The notes under the pieces were generated by a model. It was given only the letters and a program-made list of their open reading frames with translations. It was not told where the DNA came from and ran no database searches. A stretch of 64,000 bases of DNA from the NCBI GenBank assembly GCA_902777605.1, contig CACYUI010000004.1, forward strand, positions 1 through 64,000, given 5' to 3'. The DNA comes from an uncultured bacterium (GTDB lineage Bacteria > Cyanobacteriota > Vampirovibrionia > Gastranaerophilales > Gastranaerophilaceae). Below, one piece after another: positions 35,087-41,637 of this stretch (position 1 is its first letter; every line of letters begins with the position of its first letter). The position numbers and the translations under genes were made by a program.

Positions 35087-35521
35087 TTATTTGCCCGTAG
35101 AACCGAATCCGCCTGCACCTCTTTCTGTATCAGAAAGTTCTGTTACAACTTGGATCTCGGCCTGTTCGTACTTGGCAATAACCATTTGAGCAATTCTTTC
35201 CTGTGGTTCTATTGTGTATGCTTCGTTAGAAATATTAACGATAGGAACACAAACTTCTCCTCTATAGTCCTCATCGACTGTGCCTACACAGTTTATTAAA
35301 CTAATTCCGTGCTTAATTGAAAGTCCTGATCGCGGACGAATTTGAGCTTCATATCCGTGCTCTAGTTCAATTTTGAGTCCTGTTGGTATAAGCTTTCTCT
35401 CTAACGGTTGTAAAGTTATTGGCTCATCAATGGCGGCACACAGATCCATGCCAGCAGCACCTTTAGTCTTATATTCAGGAACAGATTTGTTATGTTCCAT
35501 TCTATATATTTTTAAAATCAT
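35087..35521 (-). CDS. dut: dUTP diphosphatase
   Basis: Homotrimeric dUTPase of 144 residues that keeps uracil out of DNA and supplies dUMP. The five family motifs are seen: AAGMDLCA (I), RPRSGLSIKHG (II), GTVDEDYRGEV (III, with catalytic Asp), RIAQMVIAKY (IV) and RGAGGFGSTG (V). The start is the ATG at 35521 with AGGAG six bases upstream; eight in-frame codons before it lack a site. It may share a transcript with the 79-residue gene 30 bases upstream. Confidence 0.95.
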   Translation of the reverse strand: MILKIYRMEHNKSVPEYKTKGAAGMDLCAAIDEPITLQPLERKLIPTGLKIELEHGYEAQIRPRSGLSIKHGISLINCVGTVDEDYRGEVCVPIVNISNEAYTIEPQERIAQMVIAKYEQAEIQVVTELSDTERGAGGFGSTGK

Positions 35522-35551
35522 ACTTCTCTCCTCGCATATTGTCATAAAAAT

Positions 35552-35791
35552 TTATGCAGTAATAATTGTTTTTCCGTCAATAATTTCTTTTGGGAAAATT
35601 GTTAAAGTTTCAATTCCCATAGATTTATCAGAGCTTTTGTTTATTTTTGTTGGCGGCATAGGAGAAATCTCTCCGTCAATTTCCTCATTACTATTTTGAA
35701 TATTTCCATTAGCACCCAAAAAACTGTTAGCATATTGTATAAATAAATTTCTTCTAACAGGGTTACTCATAGCAATTGACGATACATTCAT
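35552..35791 (-). CDS. small protein of unknown function upstream of dut
   Basis: 79 residues, Ser/Asn/Pro-rich, no transmembrane helix or known domain. GAAAGGTAATAACT lies before the ATG and dut follows after 30 bases, so cotranscription is likely. It could be disordered. No family recognised. Confidence 0.5.
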   Translation of the reverse strand: MNVSSIAMSNPVRRNLFIQYANSFLGANGNIQNSNEEIDGEISPMPPTKINKSSDKSMGIETLTIFPKEIIDGKTIITA

Positions 35792-35903
35792 AGTTATTAC
35801 CTTTCTTCGTTATAACCCGCCTTATTCGGCTGTGATAATTGCGCCTAAAATCAAGCAACTCAATTTTACAATAAAATAAAAAATCTGTAAATAAATTTTT
35901 ATG

Positions 35904-35909
35904 TATAAT
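35904..35909 (+). promoter_or_regulatory. -10 box for a leaderless GNAT-like transcript
   Basis: TATAAT followed by GTTAAT and then the ATG at 35916. No ribosome binding site or clear -35 box. Confidence 0.45.
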
Positions 35910-35915
35910 GTTAAT

Positions 35916-36494
35916 ATGATTAGGCGATTGGTCGATGGGTTAAAATATCCACCATTAAAGTACAATTCTCAAAAAATACCAAAAAACTTAATATGGCATT
36001 CTAAAGATAAATATGATGTGCATTATTTTAGTATATTTGATACTAATAATCCGGCTAAATATTCCAGAATGGCTTGTATCAAAGAAAGCACAATCATTGA
36101 TGAAGTTGAAAAAACATCTTTGTATATTTTGAAACTTTTTGCTAATCCGAATAGACAAGGAATGGGGACTAAAATGCTCAATTTGGCTAAGAAAATTAGC
36201 AGTGATATTGGGTGTGAAGGTCGTTTTCATTTGTGTGCTTCAGGTTGTTTTACTCCTGAAAATGTACCACATATTTTTTATCGTAAATTTGGCATGAATT
36301 GTGAAATAGCTCAAATAAATTCTAAAATGGACGAGTTTATAAAAGAAGGTAAAAAAGCAACTACAAATGATTTTAAAAGGATAACGATGTTTTACCCGCC
36401 TGTTACAGAAAAACAAGAAACTTTAGAACAAAATATACCGCTAAAAAATGATAAAGTGAATATATTTACATTGTTAAAAATGTTTGAAATTTAG
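35916..36494 (+). CDS. GNAT-like putative acetyltransferase
   Basis: 192 residues with a GNAT-type core: LYILKLFANPNRQGMGTKML is a good match to the acetyl-CoA loop (R/Q-x-x-G-x-G/T), then LCASGCFTPENVPHIFYRKFGM, where FYRKFGM is the classic C-terminal element. Of the three GNAT-like proteins in the window this is the clearest. The start at 35916 rather than 35901 is chosen because a TATAAT overlaps the upstream ATG. The acceptor substrate is unknown. It precedes the restriction-modification locus. Confidence 0.65.
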   Translation: MIRRLVDGLKYPPLKYNSQKIPKNLIWHSKDKYDVHYFSIFDTNNPAKYSRMACIKESTIIDEVEKTSLYILKLFANPNRQGMGTKMLNLAKKISSDIGCEGRFHLCASGCFTPENVPHIFYRKFGMNCEIAQINSKMDEFIKEGKKATTNDFKRITMFYPPVTEKQETLEQNIPLKNDKVNIFTLLKMFEI

Positions 36495-36621
36495 CTGGTA
36501 AATATATTTTGTAATAATTACTAAGATATTATCATTTTATTGTAAATTTATGTTATATCTTATACTATAATTCCATATCTTTTTAAACAATGACTGTTTT
36601 TTAGTGCTAGGAGATAATAAT

Positions 36622-37464
36622 ATGAAAGAGTGTAGGAATCGAGCAACAGGCTGGAAGTATGCTAAACTTACCGGACATATAAATGAAAATCAGGTCAAAT
36701 TTCTAATTGATACAGATGAAGAGTATAGATTAGAATTTCTTGAACGAGTGGGGTGTACTAATGATACCATTATCCGTTGTACTGTAGGCGGTTTACATGA
36801 AAAGAATGTTGCAGGTATATTAGGACGAAAAACAAAATCAAAAACAGATTTAAAAATCTATTGTAGCAGTGGTAAACAGATTAATGTTTCTATAAAAAAG
36901 AGTCTTGGAGGACAAGTATATTTTGTCCGTGTAGACCTGTTTTTTCAAGTTTTTGAAAAGCAATTCGGAAAAATGATTCCAGAAAATGTAAAGCGGGCAA
37001 TGAGGCTTTTCTGGGCTGCGGCAGATGATGCTGTTAGTATTATAGAGCAATATGCTGATAAAAGTGATGTAAAAAACTATAATCTACAAATTCGTCACAA
37101 AAGTCTAAATGCAACAACTTTGCTTCATTACAATTCCAGTCTTTATAAAGCTATGTTGATTTGGTTTGTAGAAAACGCATATGAATTGACTAAACTATCA
37201 TTTACTATGGGAGCAGCACAAAATCCGCAAGATTGGTCTGAGTATGTTTGGTATATCAATACTTTGGGTGAAGTTCAAGTGGACGAGATTTTTCATATTG
37301 AAGAGTTATGTTCGGCTGCAAAAGATAACGCTGTTAAAAAAACTGTTTATGGCGATTGCAATGGCGGAACAACCATACAGCTTCCATTTGGTTTTGTGCA
37401 GTGGCATCAAGCGCAAATGCAATTTCATCACTTATATTGGAAAGTAAAAGAACTTTACGATTAA
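36622..37464 (+). CDS. candidate type II restriction endonuclease
   Basis: 280 residues, no named family recognised. The call rests on position and one motif. It is tail-to-tail with a C5-cytosine methyltransferase 44 bases away. Residues 76-93 read D-(13)-V-S-I-K-K (TDLKIYCSSGKQINVSIKK), the D...xSxK form of the PD-(D/E)xK nuclease core. The C-terminal half (NGGTTIQLPFGFVQWHQAQMQFH) may hold target recognition. AGGAG is eight bases before the ATG at 36622; a GTG six codons upstream is less likely. It could also be an unrelated orphan. Confidence 0.6.
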   Translation: MKECRNRATGWKYAKLTGHINENQVKFLIDTDEEYRLEFLERVGCTNDTIIRCTVGGLHEKNVAGILGRKTKSKTDLKIYCSSGKQINVSIKKSLGGQVYFVRVDLFFQVFEKQFGKMIPENVKRAMRLFWAAADDAVSIIEQYADKSDVKNYNLQIRHKSLNATTLLHYNSSLYKAMLIWFVENAYELTKLSFTMGAAQNPQDWSEYVWYINTLGEVQVDEIFHIEELCSAAKDNAVKKTVYGDCNGGTTIQLPFGFVQWHQAQMQFHHLYWKVKELYD

Positions 37465-37508
37465 ACATAATTTTGCCGGATTTCAGAGGAAATGTTTATA
37501 TATATTCT

Positions 37509-38585
37509 TTATTCAAGTTGTTGCATTGCTTCAAGCATCTGTTTTGCAATAGCCATAGAAAGAAGAGGTGGAACAGCATTCCCAATTTCCAAACGCTTCA
37601 TCCCATCTGAACCATAAAACTTGTAATCATCAGGAAAACTCTGTAGGCGAGCCCCCTCTCTAATCGACATAGCTCTCGAATCGCGAGGATGAATGCATCT
37701 AGACGAAGACGGACAAGCGAAATTTCTTGTTACTGTTGTAGATGGTCTATTCCACCATAGTTTTGCATATGTATTGGAGTATCCGCTTTTTGGTTTTAGT
37801 TCCTCTGGTAAATCATCCTTGCTTTGTCCATCACCCAATGCTTGCATAAGTCTAATAAGATGCTCACCATTTTTTGGTGCTATATGCTCAGTTAACTTCA
37901 CATCATTCTTTCTTACAAAATCAAGGAAATCGTTATCAGGCTTTTCTGTATAATCCATTGCTTTCTCGCCGCTTTTTAAAGAAGGTAAATCTGCAAAGGC
38001 ATCTTTAAGTGTGATGTAAGGAAGAAGACCTTCGCCATGAGTTGGCATAGGGTATTCAAAGTTATTATTTCCCTTGAAACCGACTAAGATGACTCTTTCG
38101 CGATGCTGTGGCACACCATAATTAACTGCATCTAAGACTTTATATTTTAGCGAATAACCTATTTCCTCAAATTCCTTCTGAATTCTAATAAATAATCTTC
38201 CTTTATCCATGCTTAATATTCCAACAACATTTTCAAAAACGAAAGCCTTTGGTTTTAAGATTTGAAGAACTCGTTTATACTGCATGAATAAATTTGCTCG
38301 ATCATCCATTTGACGCTTACCAACTGTAGAATAAGATTGACATGGTGGACCTCCGACTATGATGTCAACAGGCTGCCCTTTAAGAGTATCTGAGAGAACT
38401 TCCTCTGTAAGGCTTGCAATATCACAGTTCAACATTTTGACATCTGGATGGTTGAGCGAATATGCGATAGAGATGTCCTTCTCTATCTCATTTGCAGCGA
38501 TGATATTGTATTCAGGTAATTTAGAAAAACCATAACTTAATCCGCCAACACCAGCAAATAAATCAATTACATTGTATAATGTCAT
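37509..38585 (-). CDS. DNA (cytosine-5) methyltransferase
   Basis: 358-residue m5C methyltransferase with all main motifs: I DLFAGVGGLSYGF, IV GGPPCQSYS with catalytic C82, VI FVFENVVG, VIII QHRERVILVGF and X IGNAVPPLLSMAIA. A target recognition domain of modest size lies between VIII and IX (about 185-310), with WWNRPSTTVTRNFACPSS typical of single-specificity enzymes. The recognition sequence cannot be read from it. It is convergent with the candidate nuclease, as in many type II systems, and preceded by a region of remnants and repeats, so the pair looks acquired. Confidence 0.93.
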   Translation of the reverse strand: MTLYNVIDLFAGVGGLSYGFSKLPEYNIIAANEIEKDISIAYSLNHPDVKMLNCDIASLTEEVLSDTLKGQPVDIIVGGPPCQSYSTVGKRQMDDRANLFMQYKRVLQILKPKAFVFENVVGILSMDKGRLFIRIQKEFEEIGYSLKYKVLDAVNYGVPQHRERVILVGFKGNNNFEYPMPTHGEGLLPYITLKDAFADLPSLKSGEKAMDYTEKPDNDFLDFVRKNDVKLTEHIAPKNGEHLIRLMQALGDGQSKDDLPEELKPKSGYSNTYAKLWWNRPSTTVTRNFACPSSSRCIHPRDSRAMSIREGARLQSFPDDYKFYGSDGMKRLEIGNAVPPLLSMAIAKQMLEAMQQLE

Positions 38586-38605
38586 ACTTTATCTTTTCTT
38601 CATCC

Positions 38606-38728
38606 TCATCTATGTTTGGCAGAGCAGTCAATATGTTTAGTTCCATTATCGAAATCTTCGACAAAACAATCATTCCCAAAATTAAAAGTTTGTAGGTCTA
38701 ATACAAGAACACTATTTGTTTTGTTGAC
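38606..38728 (-). other. open remnant with no start codon, upstream of the methyltransferase
   Basis: A 40-codon open stretch on the minus strand reads ...SVLVLDLQTFNFGNDCFVED and continues to a stop. There is no ATG, GTG or TTG in frame before the upstream stops, so it is probably the 3' end of a lost gene. It fills the gap between the methyltransferase and the first tRNA-end repeat. Confidence 0.35.
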
Positions 38729-38755
38729 TTATTAAAGCTAACTTACTTTTATAAT

Positions 38756-38917
38756 GGTGTCGACGATAATGTTACTATTTTGGAACCCTACGACAGTGGA
38801 ATTGTATCACAAAAAATGTTACCTAACAACATTTATCAACGCATAGTTTATATTATGAAACAGTCCACACAAGAGTATTACAACATCAGAATGGTGTTAG
38901 GATTAGAATGTAAATAG
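38756..38917 (+). repeat. tRNA-end module repeat, copy 1
   Basis: Starts GGTGTCGA, the complement of the tRNA-Leu-like 3' end at 41329. On the plus strand it stays open to a TAG at 38915 and reads GVDDNVTILEPYD...EYYNIRMVLGLECK, without a plausible start codon upstream. The amino-acid pattern GVDxVTxxEPxD and YYN(I/M)xxV(L/V)G is shared with copies 2 and 3, so the similarity spans the whole element. Confidence 0.6.
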
Positions 38918-38947
38918 GTGTTGGGGTTCAGCCAACCGAAAATTGAT

Positions 38948-39649
38948 TTAAAGCATTTTTAACATTGCTTTTTTTAAATCATAGTTCTTAACTATTGATA
39001 GATTCCAAAATTTCTTTTTTAACAAGCTTACTCGTCTGCTTTTACCTATTCGGTCCATACTTAATAAACGAACTCTGTTCTCATAAGAATTAGGATAAAC
39101 GGATTTCCAACCTTGCTCAGGAGCGGCAAGTTGTATTTTTTCATGATAAGGTCGTTTGGGAGTTATCTTATCCATAGAAAATCCAAAATCTTCTATGAGC
39201 CTTTTTCTTATGTGGTAAGTTTTCGGATACATTGTTCTATAAGTTCTATCAAAGGCACTTTTTGACAATTTAACTTCGTCAGAAATTTCATCAGTCATGA
39301 GAGTTTCGCTTGCACAAATAAATTTTTTTACACCCATTAAAGTATCTAATATTGCATTATCTCTTTTTACTTGCCTTTCAATTACGGGAGTTTTATCTAT
39401 CATGGGTATAAGTAACTCTGTATCAACTTTTGAATTCTTTTTATATATCTCATAATTTCTATGGTTGATTTTTGATTGTTTTAGCCCTTCTTTATGTATT
39501 TGGTCAACCATAATCATATGAGCAACAGAATGATTTTGTTGTCCGACTGTGTAGTATGTTTGCATACTACGGTTAAACTTCTCCTTATCAGTACTTTTAT
39601 AAGATTGATAAGCATTTATAACACTGTTTCTAACAACATCATATTCCAT
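38948..39649 (-). CDS. protein of unknown function in tRNA-end module
   Basis: 233 residues, basic and predicted helical, no signal peptide or membrane segment. Segments such as SKSAFDRTYRTMYPKTYHIRKRL look nucleic-acid-binding but no family is recognised. The ATG at 39649 follows AGGA by six bases; an ATG two codons upstream abuts the AGGA. It sits between repeat copies 1 and 2 of the tRNA-end array, with the repeat copy 2 immediately upstream of its start, and probably arrived with that array. Confidence 0.55.
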   Translation of the reverse strand: MEYDVVRNSVINAYQSYKSTDKEKFNRSMQTYYTVGQQNHSVAHMIMVDQIHKEGLKQSKINHRNYEIYKKNSKVDTELLIPMIDKTPVIERQVKRDNAILDTLMGVKKFICASETLMTDEISDEVKLSKSAFDRTYRTMYPKTYHIRKRLIEDFGFSMDKITPKRPYHEKIQLAAPEQGWKSVYPNSYENRVRLLSMDRIGKSRRVSLLKKKFWNLSIVKNYDLKKAMLKML

Positions 39650-39670
39650 ACACATTCCTAATTTATATTT

Positions 39671-39829
39671 GGTGTCGATAAGGTTACTATTTTGGAACCC
39701 TTTGACAATGAGATTATAGCAAATTTAGGTAATAAGTACAATACTTTTCATAAGTTGATATTGCTTATGAAATTAGATGCGCAAACATATTATAACATCA
39801 AAATGGTATTAGGTTATGAAGTTCAGTAA
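39671..39829 (+). repeat. tRNA-end module repeat, copy 2
   Basis: Begins GGTGTCGATAAGGTTACT and reads GVDKVTILEPFD...TYYNIKMVLGYEVQ before a TAA at 39827-39829. That stop directly abuts the stop codon of the convergent membrane-protein gene. Minus-strand TATAAT sequences inside it could drive the gene at 38948-39649. Confidence 0.6.
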
Positions 39830-40597
39830 TTATTTAAACAAACTAAGAATAAAAAGTATAAAACCACCAAATATAGATACAAATAATATTGTCAGTACAA
39901 TTGGATTAACTGGTGAATATAGGTTAGTTCTTAATGTTTTTTTATATCCGTTTTGAATATAATCTTCAATAATCTTACCTAAAGTTTCTTTTGTATGATT
40001 TCCATTGCCAATAAACCTATATGAAAAGTCTTTCATGTACTGAGAGTAGTAGACTATCTTATACAATTTGTTTAAATTAACAGGAGCATAATGAATTGAA
40101 TAAGAATAACTGTTGGCTTTTATATTTATATATAGTCCTTGTATAGCAGAGTATGTTCCCGGAAGGTGTTTGTTTAGTGCTATACATGTATCTACTACCA
40201 ACTCCAAAGAGTCAATATCTTTATAGATGATTTCTTTGACACTATTTTTGTTTAAATATGACAATAAAAGCTTATCTTCTAAAAAATCTATAAATTTGAT
40301 AAAAGTTTCAGAATCATATGCAGAAGCCTCATCTGCAACACGCTCTTTTAATTCATAGATTAATAAAAACAGGAAAAATAAAGGAGTTATTAATAATACT
40401 AAAAAAACAAATTTCATTCCTAAATCTGCTTCACAGAATGAAGAAAACATCCAACAAAAGCTTTCCCACAAGGTCATTCCTGAGTTTAAAGCAATTAATA
40501 ATAAAGAAATATCAATTGCAGAAAAAACTAGAATAAATGCAAGTATGCATATTATAGTCTGATTGCACGCACTTGATGTTAAATTCTTTATTCTCAT
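39830..40597 (-). CDS. membrane protein with PH-like cytoplasmic domain, module A
   Basis: 255 residues: two N-terminal membrane helices (IICILAFILVFSAIDISLLL and FVFLVLLITPLFFLFLLI), a soluble middle domain (about 110-220) and one C-terminal helix (VLTILFVSIFGGFILFILSL). The middle domain (IYKDIDSLELVVD, LYINIKANSYSYSI, MKDFSYRFIG, LGKIIEDYI) parallels that of the protein at 40782 and looks like a bacterial PH-type domain. Start ATG at 40597 has a weak binding site. Unknown function; tRNA-end context suggests an accessory, perhaps defence, role. Confidence 0.6.
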   Translation of the reverse strand: MRIKNLTSSACNQTIICILAFILVFSAIDISLLLIALNSGMTLWESFCWMFSSFCEADLGMKFVFLVLLITPLFFLFLLIYELKERVADEASAYDSETFIKFIDFLEDKLLLSYLNKNSVKEIIYKDIDSLELVVDTCIALNKHLPGTYSAIQGLYINIKANSYSYSIHYAPVNLNKLYKIVYYSQYMKDFSYRFIGNGNHTKETLGKIIEDYIQNGYKKTLRTNLYSPVNPIVLTILFVSIFGGFILFILSLFK

Positions 40598-40617
40598 AAA
40601 ACTCACAATACTACTAT

Positions 40618-40755
40618 GGTGTCGATGGGGTGACTAAAATAGAACCCGATGACATATATAATTTATCATATTTTGATAATGTTGTAAATCTTATTCACTT
40701 ATTAAAAAACTCTACGGAAGATTATTACAATATGAAAAAGGTTGTCGGGTTGTAA
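40618..40755 (+). repeat. tRNA-end module repeat, copy 3
   Basis: Begins GGTGTCGATGGGGTGACT, closest of the three to the tRNA-Leu 3' end (GGTGTCGATGGGGGGACT at 41330). It reads GVDGVTKIEPDD...DYYNMKKVVGL and stops at 40753-40755. Shorter by about 20 bases than copies 1 and 2. Confidence 0.6.
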
Positions 40756-40763
40756 GTGAAATT

Positions 40764-40785
40764 GGTGCAAATAATTGCACCCTAC
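40764..40785 (-). repeat. REP-like palindrome with GTAGGG head
   Basis: On the minus strand GTAGG then the hairpin GGTGCAA-TTAT-TTGCACC. The TAG within its head supplies the stop codon of the gene at 40782-41318. Same GTAG-plus-hairpin design as 82-104 and 1008-1030 but a different stem sequence. Confidence 0.6.
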
Positions 40786-41318
40786 AGACTAACTAGTAAT
40801 ATTGTATAAAGAAGCATTCCAAAAGAACAAACAATTGCAACAAGTGCAATCAACAATATAATAATTGAAATTTTGTCAAATATGTTTCCATTTTTGAAGT
40901 CTAAAAATGTAAGTTTATACCAGGGTATTAATTTGTGGTACCTTACATAATATTCAACAATAGCCTTTAAGGTATTAAGATTTTTTCTGGGTGTACATGT
41001 TATTTCATAGGAAAAGTTTGGAATATTGTTGCTGTAATCTATAATGTTGAATAACACCGGGAAATTTGTTGCTGAGTGTATAATATCATAATCAACATAC
41101 TCTAATATATTTGAAGTTCCGTCATTCAATAATATATTAATTAGCAAATTGTGATTAACAGTAACACCTCTTCCCCCAGAGATATAATCGACATTAAGCT
41201 GTACTTTTAATGAACTGATACTGTTATATTCAATTCGTACTTGCTCCGAGTTTTCATTTACATAATGAAAACTCTGTCTTTCAAATACAATTTTCTTTAC
41301 TTTTAATGCATGATTCAT
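40782..41318 (-). CDS. membrane-anchored PH-like domain protein, module B
   Basis: 178 residues if started at the ATG at 41318. A soluble beta-rich domain (about 25-140: IEYNSISSLKVQLNVD, LLINILLNDG, IPNFSYEITC, LKAIVEYYVRYHK) is followed by a C-terminal membrane helix (IIILLIALVAIVCSFGMLLY). The soluble part is a paralogue of the middle domain at 39830. An in-frame extension to 41477 would translate the tRNA-Leu-like sequence and is rejected. No ribosome binding site is clear. The REP-like element at 40764 forms its stop codon. Function unknown. Confidence 0.6.
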   Translation of the reverse strand: MNHALKVKKIVFERQSFHYVNENSEQVRIEYNSISSLKVQLNVDYISGGRGVTVNHNLLINILLNDGTSNILEYVDYDIIHSATNFPVLFNIIDYSNNIPNFSYEITCTPRKNLNTLKAIVEYYVRYHKLIPWYKLTFLDFKNGNIFDKISIIILLIALVAIVCSFGMLLYTILLVSL

Positions 41319-41328
41319 AATTCTAAAA

Positions 41329-41475
41329 TGGTGTCGATGGGGGGACTTGTCTTGCTCGTTCGCGTTTAACGGGTCTACGGTTTTTCTTTTCAGAAACTTC
41401 GTTTCTTCCAAAGAAAAGACCTTCGCCCTCAGCTCACCCTCAAACGTGCGCGTATACCGATTCCGCCACATCGAC
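41329..41475 (-). pseudogene. broken tRNA-Leu(GAG)-like gene
   Basis: The 5' part is a good tRNA-Leu: acceptor GTCGATG, TG, D arm GCGGAATCGGTATACGC, then G, CACGT and loop TTGAGGG (anticodon GAG). After the anticodon loop the sequence no longer pairs; about 80 foreign bases follow, with a hairpin AGAAAC/GTTTCT. The 3' part, AGTCCCCC-CATCGAC-A-CCA, restores the T-stem strand and the acceptor, which still pairs perfectly with the 5' end. A further fragment of the same 5' end (GTCGATGTGGC) lies at 41561-41571. Confidence 0.6.
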
Positions 41476-41560
41476 ACAAATTATTAAATTATCACTTCGT
41501 GATGCGTATACCTCCCCTCTCACAAAACCTGACATTTAGTCAGCTTTTGTTCGGCAGAGT

Positions 41561-41571
41561 GCCACATCGAC
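41561..41571 (-). pseudogene. extra fragment of tRNA-Leu 5' end
   Basis: GTCGATGTGGC on the minus strand repeats the first 11 bases of the broken tRNA-Leu. About 75 bases on, GGTATACGCATCACG resembles its D/anticodon-arm region. Together they look like a second, more decayed tRNA copy. The rest of 41476-41637 shows no gene. Confidence 0.4.
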
Positions 41572-41637
41572 AAGAATGTGTCTTTCGACCTAACAATCCT
41601 AGCATAAAAAAAATATTGTTTCAAATGATTTTTATAT

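Follow-up and report, generated by a model that had tools for sequence, protein, structure and literature searches.

Several described systems resemble the locus analyzed here. The genomic islands at the ssrA gene of Dehalococcoides carry a serine recombinase of 540 amino acids (aa), DsiB, the gene of which overlaps attL at its 3' end, and a second serine recombinase of about 200 aa (PMC3146451, McMurdie et al. 2011). The integration module is missing from 15 of the 31 islands, which the authors regarded as possible cis-mobilizable elements; they also suggested that the DsiB gene is perhaps fully functional only on the circle or beside an island holding the 3' fragment (PMC3146451). In the suicidal integrases of archaea (SSV, pTN3 and pT26-2), attP lies within the integrase gene, and integration splits the gene into int(N) and int(C) (PMC8371274). 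The present locus lies in a window of 64,000 nucleotides of an uncultured bacterium of the Gastranaerophilaceae (positions 1 to 64,000 of contig CACYUI010000004.1, assembly GCA_902777605.1). At 38757-41331 of this window, a tRNA-Leu(GAG) gene is followed at its 3' end by three stacked one-gene cassettes, which are delimited by a TGTCG core. We consider it probable (about 0.85) that they form an array of non-autonomous cassettes belonging to an integrative family that is driven by a large serine recombinase (LSR) and targets the 3' end of tRNA-Leu(GAG/CAG), and that the repeat carried by each cassette corresponds to the last ~50 codons of the LSR gene.

The Dehalococcoides islands are the closest known case, since they combine an integrase gene overlapping attL, a tandem arrangement at the 3' end of one RNA gene as found here, and many units without integration genes (PMC3146451). 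They differ in the target, which is tmRNA, in the insertion within the T-loop and in the host; a conserved tail was not reported for them, and the DsiB alignments diverge in that region (PMC3146451). The present units, in contrast, carry a conserved coding tail of ~50 aa at their distal junctions, mostly hold a single gene and show a visible difference in spacing between attP and attB. The archaeal suicidal integrases are tyrosine recombinases and were stated to be exclusively archaeal (PMC8371274), whereas the present enzyme is a bacterial LSR and the part equivalent to int(C) is a non-catalytic tail. Attachment sites without an integrase and tandem stacking at one site are shared with cis-mobilizable elements and with the site-specific accretion of integrative and conjugative or integrative and mobilizable elements, but the present units are mostly 0.4-2 kb long, usually hold one gene and have a fragment of the integrase gene aboard. 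One-gene cassette arrays beside a single anchor are also a feature of integrons; here, however, the arrays contain no integron integrase, both strands carry cargo, a tRNA gene serves as the anchor and the recombinase is of the serine type. A literature search on self-splitting serine integrases and on mobile elements of Gastranaerophilales, with subscription journals mostly outside its scope, returned nothing closer than these two papers (PMC3146451 and PMC8371274). The new aspects of the present case are that small cassettes carry a tail that is conserved and under selection, that this tail is reused in frame, and that the attP/attB geometry is visible at a tRNA gene.

The array was delimited as follows. 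On the plus strand of the window, TGGTGTCGA is found at 38755, 39670, 40617 and 41329, that is, four times in 2.6 kb; this 9-mer has 11 occurrences in the 2.0 Mb genome against one for a reversed-pattern control. A repeat search recovered three diverged repeat copies with a shared start at the tRNA 3' end, as an earlier reading of the DNA (hereafter the sequence-only reading) had claimed. The tRNA-distal cassette 1 (38757..39672, minus strand, 915 bp), cassette 2 (39672..40619, minus strand, 947 bp) and the tRNA-proximal cassette 3 (40619..41331, minus strand, 712 bp) are each bounded by TGTCG cores and consist of one gene and one repeat copy. The cargo genes, all on the minus strand, encode proteins of 235 aa (38948..39655) and 258 aa (39830..40606), both without a family, and of 178 aa (40782..41318), without a PADLOC family. 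The repeats, which we regard as integrase tails and putative attP half-sites, lie on the plus strand and match profile A1 at 38756..38917 (E 1.1e-26; one extra codon, spacing 25 nt), 39671..39829 (E 1.6e-27; spacing 22 nt) and 40618..40755 (E 4.3e-18; peptide GVDGVTKIEPDD...KKVVGL). In the last copy, a core-to-GAACC spacing of 22 nt was read directly. The array ends at the tRNA-Leu(GAG) 3' end, from the T-loop to CCA (41329..41349, minus strand; core at 41331-41335), which would be a landing site of attB type. The sequence-only reading had described each repeat as lying directly upstream of a leftward gene; the leftward genes are present, but the unit is a gene with the repeat downstream and not a repeat with a gene downstream. 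Its remark that part of the conserved amino-acid pattern is the tRNA end read in antisense was correct. Near 38.6 kb, a small search gave a faint hint of a fourth tail (E 0.026), which we did not count. The restriction-modification pair adjoining the array was not counted among the cassettes either, although restriction and AbiH genes do occur in parent elements.

The plus-strand frames of the repeats are coding-like. For 22 copies, most of them taken from relatives, the proportions of synonymous (pS) and nonsynonymous (pN) differences were 0.62 and 0.30 over all pairs and 0.36 and 0.11 in the closest pairs; the synonymous excess was clearest in the predicted frame. This type of check had been proposed together with the possibility that the frames are real short proteins. 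If so, the repeats would be independent proteins expressed with the neighboring genes and would overlap the tRNA end only incidentally. Besides the coding constraint, an open frame of ~40-60 codons in 85 of the 108 repeat copies is in keeping with such proteins. A start codon upstream of the core is, however, absent in 86 of the 108 copies, and 19 of the 85 intact copies have none in their first ten codons either. Since the conserved block starts at the tRNA-end core, mostly without a start codon, it appears to be the terminal part of a longer gene, and in two loci described below it is the C-terminus of an LSR. The stand-alone short protein, which we rejected for want of a conserved start codon, thus seems very improbable. 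A viral origin of the repeat was also rejected, since a search of IMG/VR by the conserved-peptide pattern confirmed no relative.

The longer gene was located by scanning for frames running through the core, and its C-terminal region was then used as a query across the order Gastranaerophilales. The scan gave open reading frames (ORFs) of about 560 codons that enter the tRNA-Leu gene; the LSR ORFs are about 565-572 aa long where complete. In 24 of the 30 fetched loci, the frame ends exactly at a stop in the tRNA T-loop (...SKKLNVDGGT* or a similar ending); in three it extends beyond this point, and in two it continues in frame into the repeat. An LSR frame that passes through the core into the repeat was seen in L279/L268 and L254. 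The order in L279 is a tRNA with CCA, a one-gene cassette, the repeat and the LSR, so that the repeat of the cassette is the C-terminus of the LSR itself. The ORF is cut short at the tRNA, its tail lies at the distal end of the element, and the two parts are rejoined in L279 and L254. Resolvase (PF00239), Recombinase (PF07508) and Zn-ribbon (PF13408) domains were found in the LSRs of two parent elements, combined in one protein of ~450-650 aa as in the LSR class, and the LSR of a third parent matches the PHROG 95 integrase. These domains are those of a serine recombinase and not of the tyrosine recombinases of the archaeal SSV group. Both alternatives of the sequence-only reading, cassette ends and real coding frames, are partly correct: the repeats form the 3' part of an integrase gene with its own attP inside, and this is why they are both attachment sites and coding.

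The identity of the enzyme also bears on another interpretation, namely that the system is integron-like or driven by a tyrosine integrase, the repeat being an attC-like site or an arm of a tyrosine attP. One ORF per unit in 42 of the 66 cassettes delimited by cutting at the core and insertion at a single site beside an anchor would be expected of such a system. The gene spanning the core is nevertheless an LSR, no tyrosine recombinase (PF00589) was found in the cassettes, and one genome with repeats (G177) has only two Xer-like tyrosine recombinases. Cargo occurs in either orientation (51 minus, 48 plus), unlike that of typical integron cassettes. With no tyrosine or integron integrase gene in the cassettes, this candidate was rejected; we regard it as the least probable of the interpretations considered.

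Eleven parent regions were taken, most of which begin at the tRNA or LSR, end at the distal repeat and measure 5-18 kb. Most hold an ORF of 60-97 aa before the LSR, a protein of ~450-500 aa and a small serine recombinase of ~200 aa; their cargo includes, for example, type I or IIG restriction and AbiH. The ~500 aa protein (L270:8694-10190 and its orthologues) weakly resembles a replication protein family of filamentous phages, the match in one parent being to the phage G2P replication family (E 1.4e-4). The resemblance suggests that excision may be followed by rolling-circle replication. In the genome of the window, no LSR of this group was found, in agreement with the earlier statement that no integrase is present. 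A second LSR in this genome (L281:961-2530; G000:C30) has a frame heading to the 3' end of tRNA-Glu and may represent the same design serving another tRNA.

The attachment sites provide an argument that stands apart from the gene structure. The distance between the first bases of TGTCG and GAACC is 17 nt in 97 of 97 tRNA ends, whereas it is 22 nt in 91 of 120 repeats. It was reported for serine integrases that the zinc-domain motif lies 5 bp further outward in attP than in attB (PMC3783163), and the repeats show the same 5 bp displacement relative to the tRNAs. The parent attP is near-symmetric, GGCTC-N12-TGTCG-N17-GAACC, with GGCTC or GGTTC at the mirrored distance in its other half (24 cases). 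The spacing difference and the mirrored motif together indicate that the repeat is a P half-site and the T-arm of the tRNA a B half-site, the target motif being GGTTC of the T-arm. The two arguments agree with each other.

The repeat profile matches 166 of the 383 genomes of the order, and 78 loci were fetched from a second collection; the organism-named records with the repeat are mostly Candidatus Gastranaerophilales from gut and rumen. In 36 loci, the sequence extends for 4.5 kb or more past the last repeat copy; 30 of them have a tRNA-Leu (GAG, CAG or AAG) in that flank, always on the strand opposite to the repeat, so that the repeat lies 3' of the tRNA; none had a tRNA-Leu on the other side or on the same strand. 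Two of the remaining six loci (L121 and L125) fit an intervening parent element of 16-18 kb. In the genus of the window, tRNA-Leu(GAG) lies between a conserved upstream block containing dUTPase and a conserved downstream block. Between these blocks there is nothing (L211 and L228), one gene (L202, L216 and L224) or more, and the encoding of CCA by the tRNA gene varies with the adjoining unit; a CCA-bearing or similar tRNA end is present distally in L202 and L210. Such empty and filled sites in the same synteny bear out the proposal that small cassettes were repeatedly inserted at one tRNA end.

The 66 cassettes are 387-4151 bp long (median 1.1 kb). Their cargo comprises many small unknown proteins and matches to defense models such as PsyrTA, GmrSD, DpdF and Fic/RhuM. 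A cassette of 550 bp with 98.9% identity is found at tRNA-Leu(CAG) in L158 and at tRNA-Leu(GAG) in L156; one end of the alignment lies at the core, and the other runs on into the similar tRNA genes. In L154, another cassette of 620 bp (95% identity) adjoins tRNA-Leu(CAG), and in L156 it has a repeat on either side; the flanks are unrelated, and the alignment halts at the cores. Since shared cassettes at different tRNA-Leu loci end at the cores, the comparison indicates that the cassettes are mobile units whose movement between tRNA genes is precise, and the expectation that modules come and go as units held in relatives. These cassettes are bounded by attachment sites and have no integrase, and in this they conform to the description of cis-mobilizable elements; the genome of the window lacks this LSR. 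At two tRNA-Leu(GAG) loci (L204 and L205, 3.4-6.4 kb), genes resembling by eye a transposase/ATPase pair and an integrase N-terminus lie behind the tRNA.

It is worth considering another interpretation of this movement. Homologous recombination, with tail repeats and tRNA ends as the partners, may be the chief route by which the cassettes spread, and the LSR may act on the parents alone. The same cargo occurs with different tails, a point that also speaks for the LSR-driven family, and mosaic tails have their breaks inside the repeat. In addition, the left half-site of the cassettes is without the GGCTC motif of the parent attP, so that either recognition there is loose or the cassettes move only together with a parent. 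The tRNA-proximal boundary, however, shares only the short core and the tRNA end, and yet exact cassette moves occur there. We therefore think this interpretation unlikely, though less so than the two discussed above. The absence of the left motif also weighs against LSR-driven movement of the cassettes, as do the following points. Some repeats hold stops or frameshifts, which fits relics and also a loss of function. The AlphaFold model of the tail from a single sequence was of low confidence (mean predicted local distance difference test score of 50) and was not used. Most of the compared genomes are metagenome assemblies. None of the three cassettes of the window was found elsewhere as a unit, and their cargo had no match among the fetched loci, where only the tail repeats and the tRNA flank matched; mobility is therefore shown for the family and not for these three. 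The anatomy of the cassettes, the identity of the LSR, its split gene, the rejoining in L279, the 5 bp wider spacing of attP and the movement of units up to the core are nevertheless established by comparison of sequences, and we retain the LSR-driven cassette family as the best explanation.

According to this comparison, attP of the parent lies inside the LSR gene, ~50 codons before its end. Integration cuts the gene: its first ~565 codons abut the tRNA and stop in the T-loop, whereas the repeat, comprising the final ~50 codons, marks the distal end of the element and forms a P half-site. Each cassette has the tRNA-end core on one side and the P half-site with the tail on the other. In the mechanism that we propose, the LSR would act on the cassettes in trans. 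A cassette lying between the tRNA and a parent would restore a full-length LSR and create an attB-like junction on the tRNA-CCA side and an attP at the junction of tail and parent. The LSR could therefore release the cassette by attP x attB recombination, and attL x attR recombination could insert it. Where tail repeats undergo homologous recombination with each other, parents would be lost, arrays would stay behind and mosaic tails would arise; the window would be an array left without its parent, since its genome has no LSR of this group. We suggest, tentatively and with the balance of our judgment slightly against it, that this arrangement is a switch: a parent directly against the tRNA would make a truncated LSR, and any cassette inserted between the two would supply the C-terminal tail while the junctions become attB and attP.

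The tRNA-Leu(GAG) gene of the window is broken. Its 5' 39 nt (41437..41475, minus strand) are 100% identical to the intact tRNA-Leu(GAG) of a relative (G056), and its 3' ~21 nt match the same gene. The earlier description of this tRNA was borne out in this respect; the foreign bases separating its parts, however, lie outside the cassettes and are a dispersed repeat, TAR, in place of the tRNA middle (41350..41436, minus strand). ARAGORN and Rfam called no tRNA here. The proposed search for an intact tRNA-Leu(GAG) found one in the relative and none elsewhere in the 43-contig assembly of the window, and the break may be a local misassembly at the repeat. TAR copies with 85-93% identity lie behind tRNA-Glu, -Thr, -Val and -His of the same genome, each interrupting the T-loop of a displaced tRNA 3' fragment. 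Repeats of this kind, ~90-130 nt long (window 41350-41436; L028-L034; L263:1860-2040), were seen behind tRNA-Glu, -Thr, -Val, -His, -Gln and -Leu, and each copy ends in the 3' end of its own tRNA. At another tRNA-Leu (L263), an intact tRNA-Leu is followed by a terminator, a T-arm copy split by the T-loop repeat and then an LSR, which looks like the layout before the damage; compared with it, the window is missing the stretch from the anticodon loop to the T-loop repeat. The breakage is separate from the cassettes and consists of an unrelated T-loop repeat and a deletion. Upstream of the tRNA, at 41484-41570, there is a second copy of the tRNA 5' end (GTCGATGTGGC) followed by other sequence, and similar copies seemingly also lie upstream of tRNA-Leu in relatives. 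At 35087-41475, the orientation of the tRNA and the array with respect to the dUTPase block is opposite to that in the remaining genus, which places an inversion breakpoint near the tRNA.

The LSR-driven cassette family would account for a widespread gene-capture hotspot, present in 166 of the 383 genomes, that looks integrase-free. It would be a conserved version, in another phylum, of the idea raised for the Dehalococcoides islands, and would extend self-splitting integrases to bacterial serine recombinases. The conserved tRNA ends offer testable attB/attP pairs, and the tail may be used as a search tag for unrecognized cassettes, some of them with defense genes. An enzyme C-terminus that could be supplied by a neighboring cassette would bear on directionality control of serine integrases. 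If the switch is true, the array would be an integron-like system of exchange, and every cassette would contribute the final part of the enzyme that mobilizes it.

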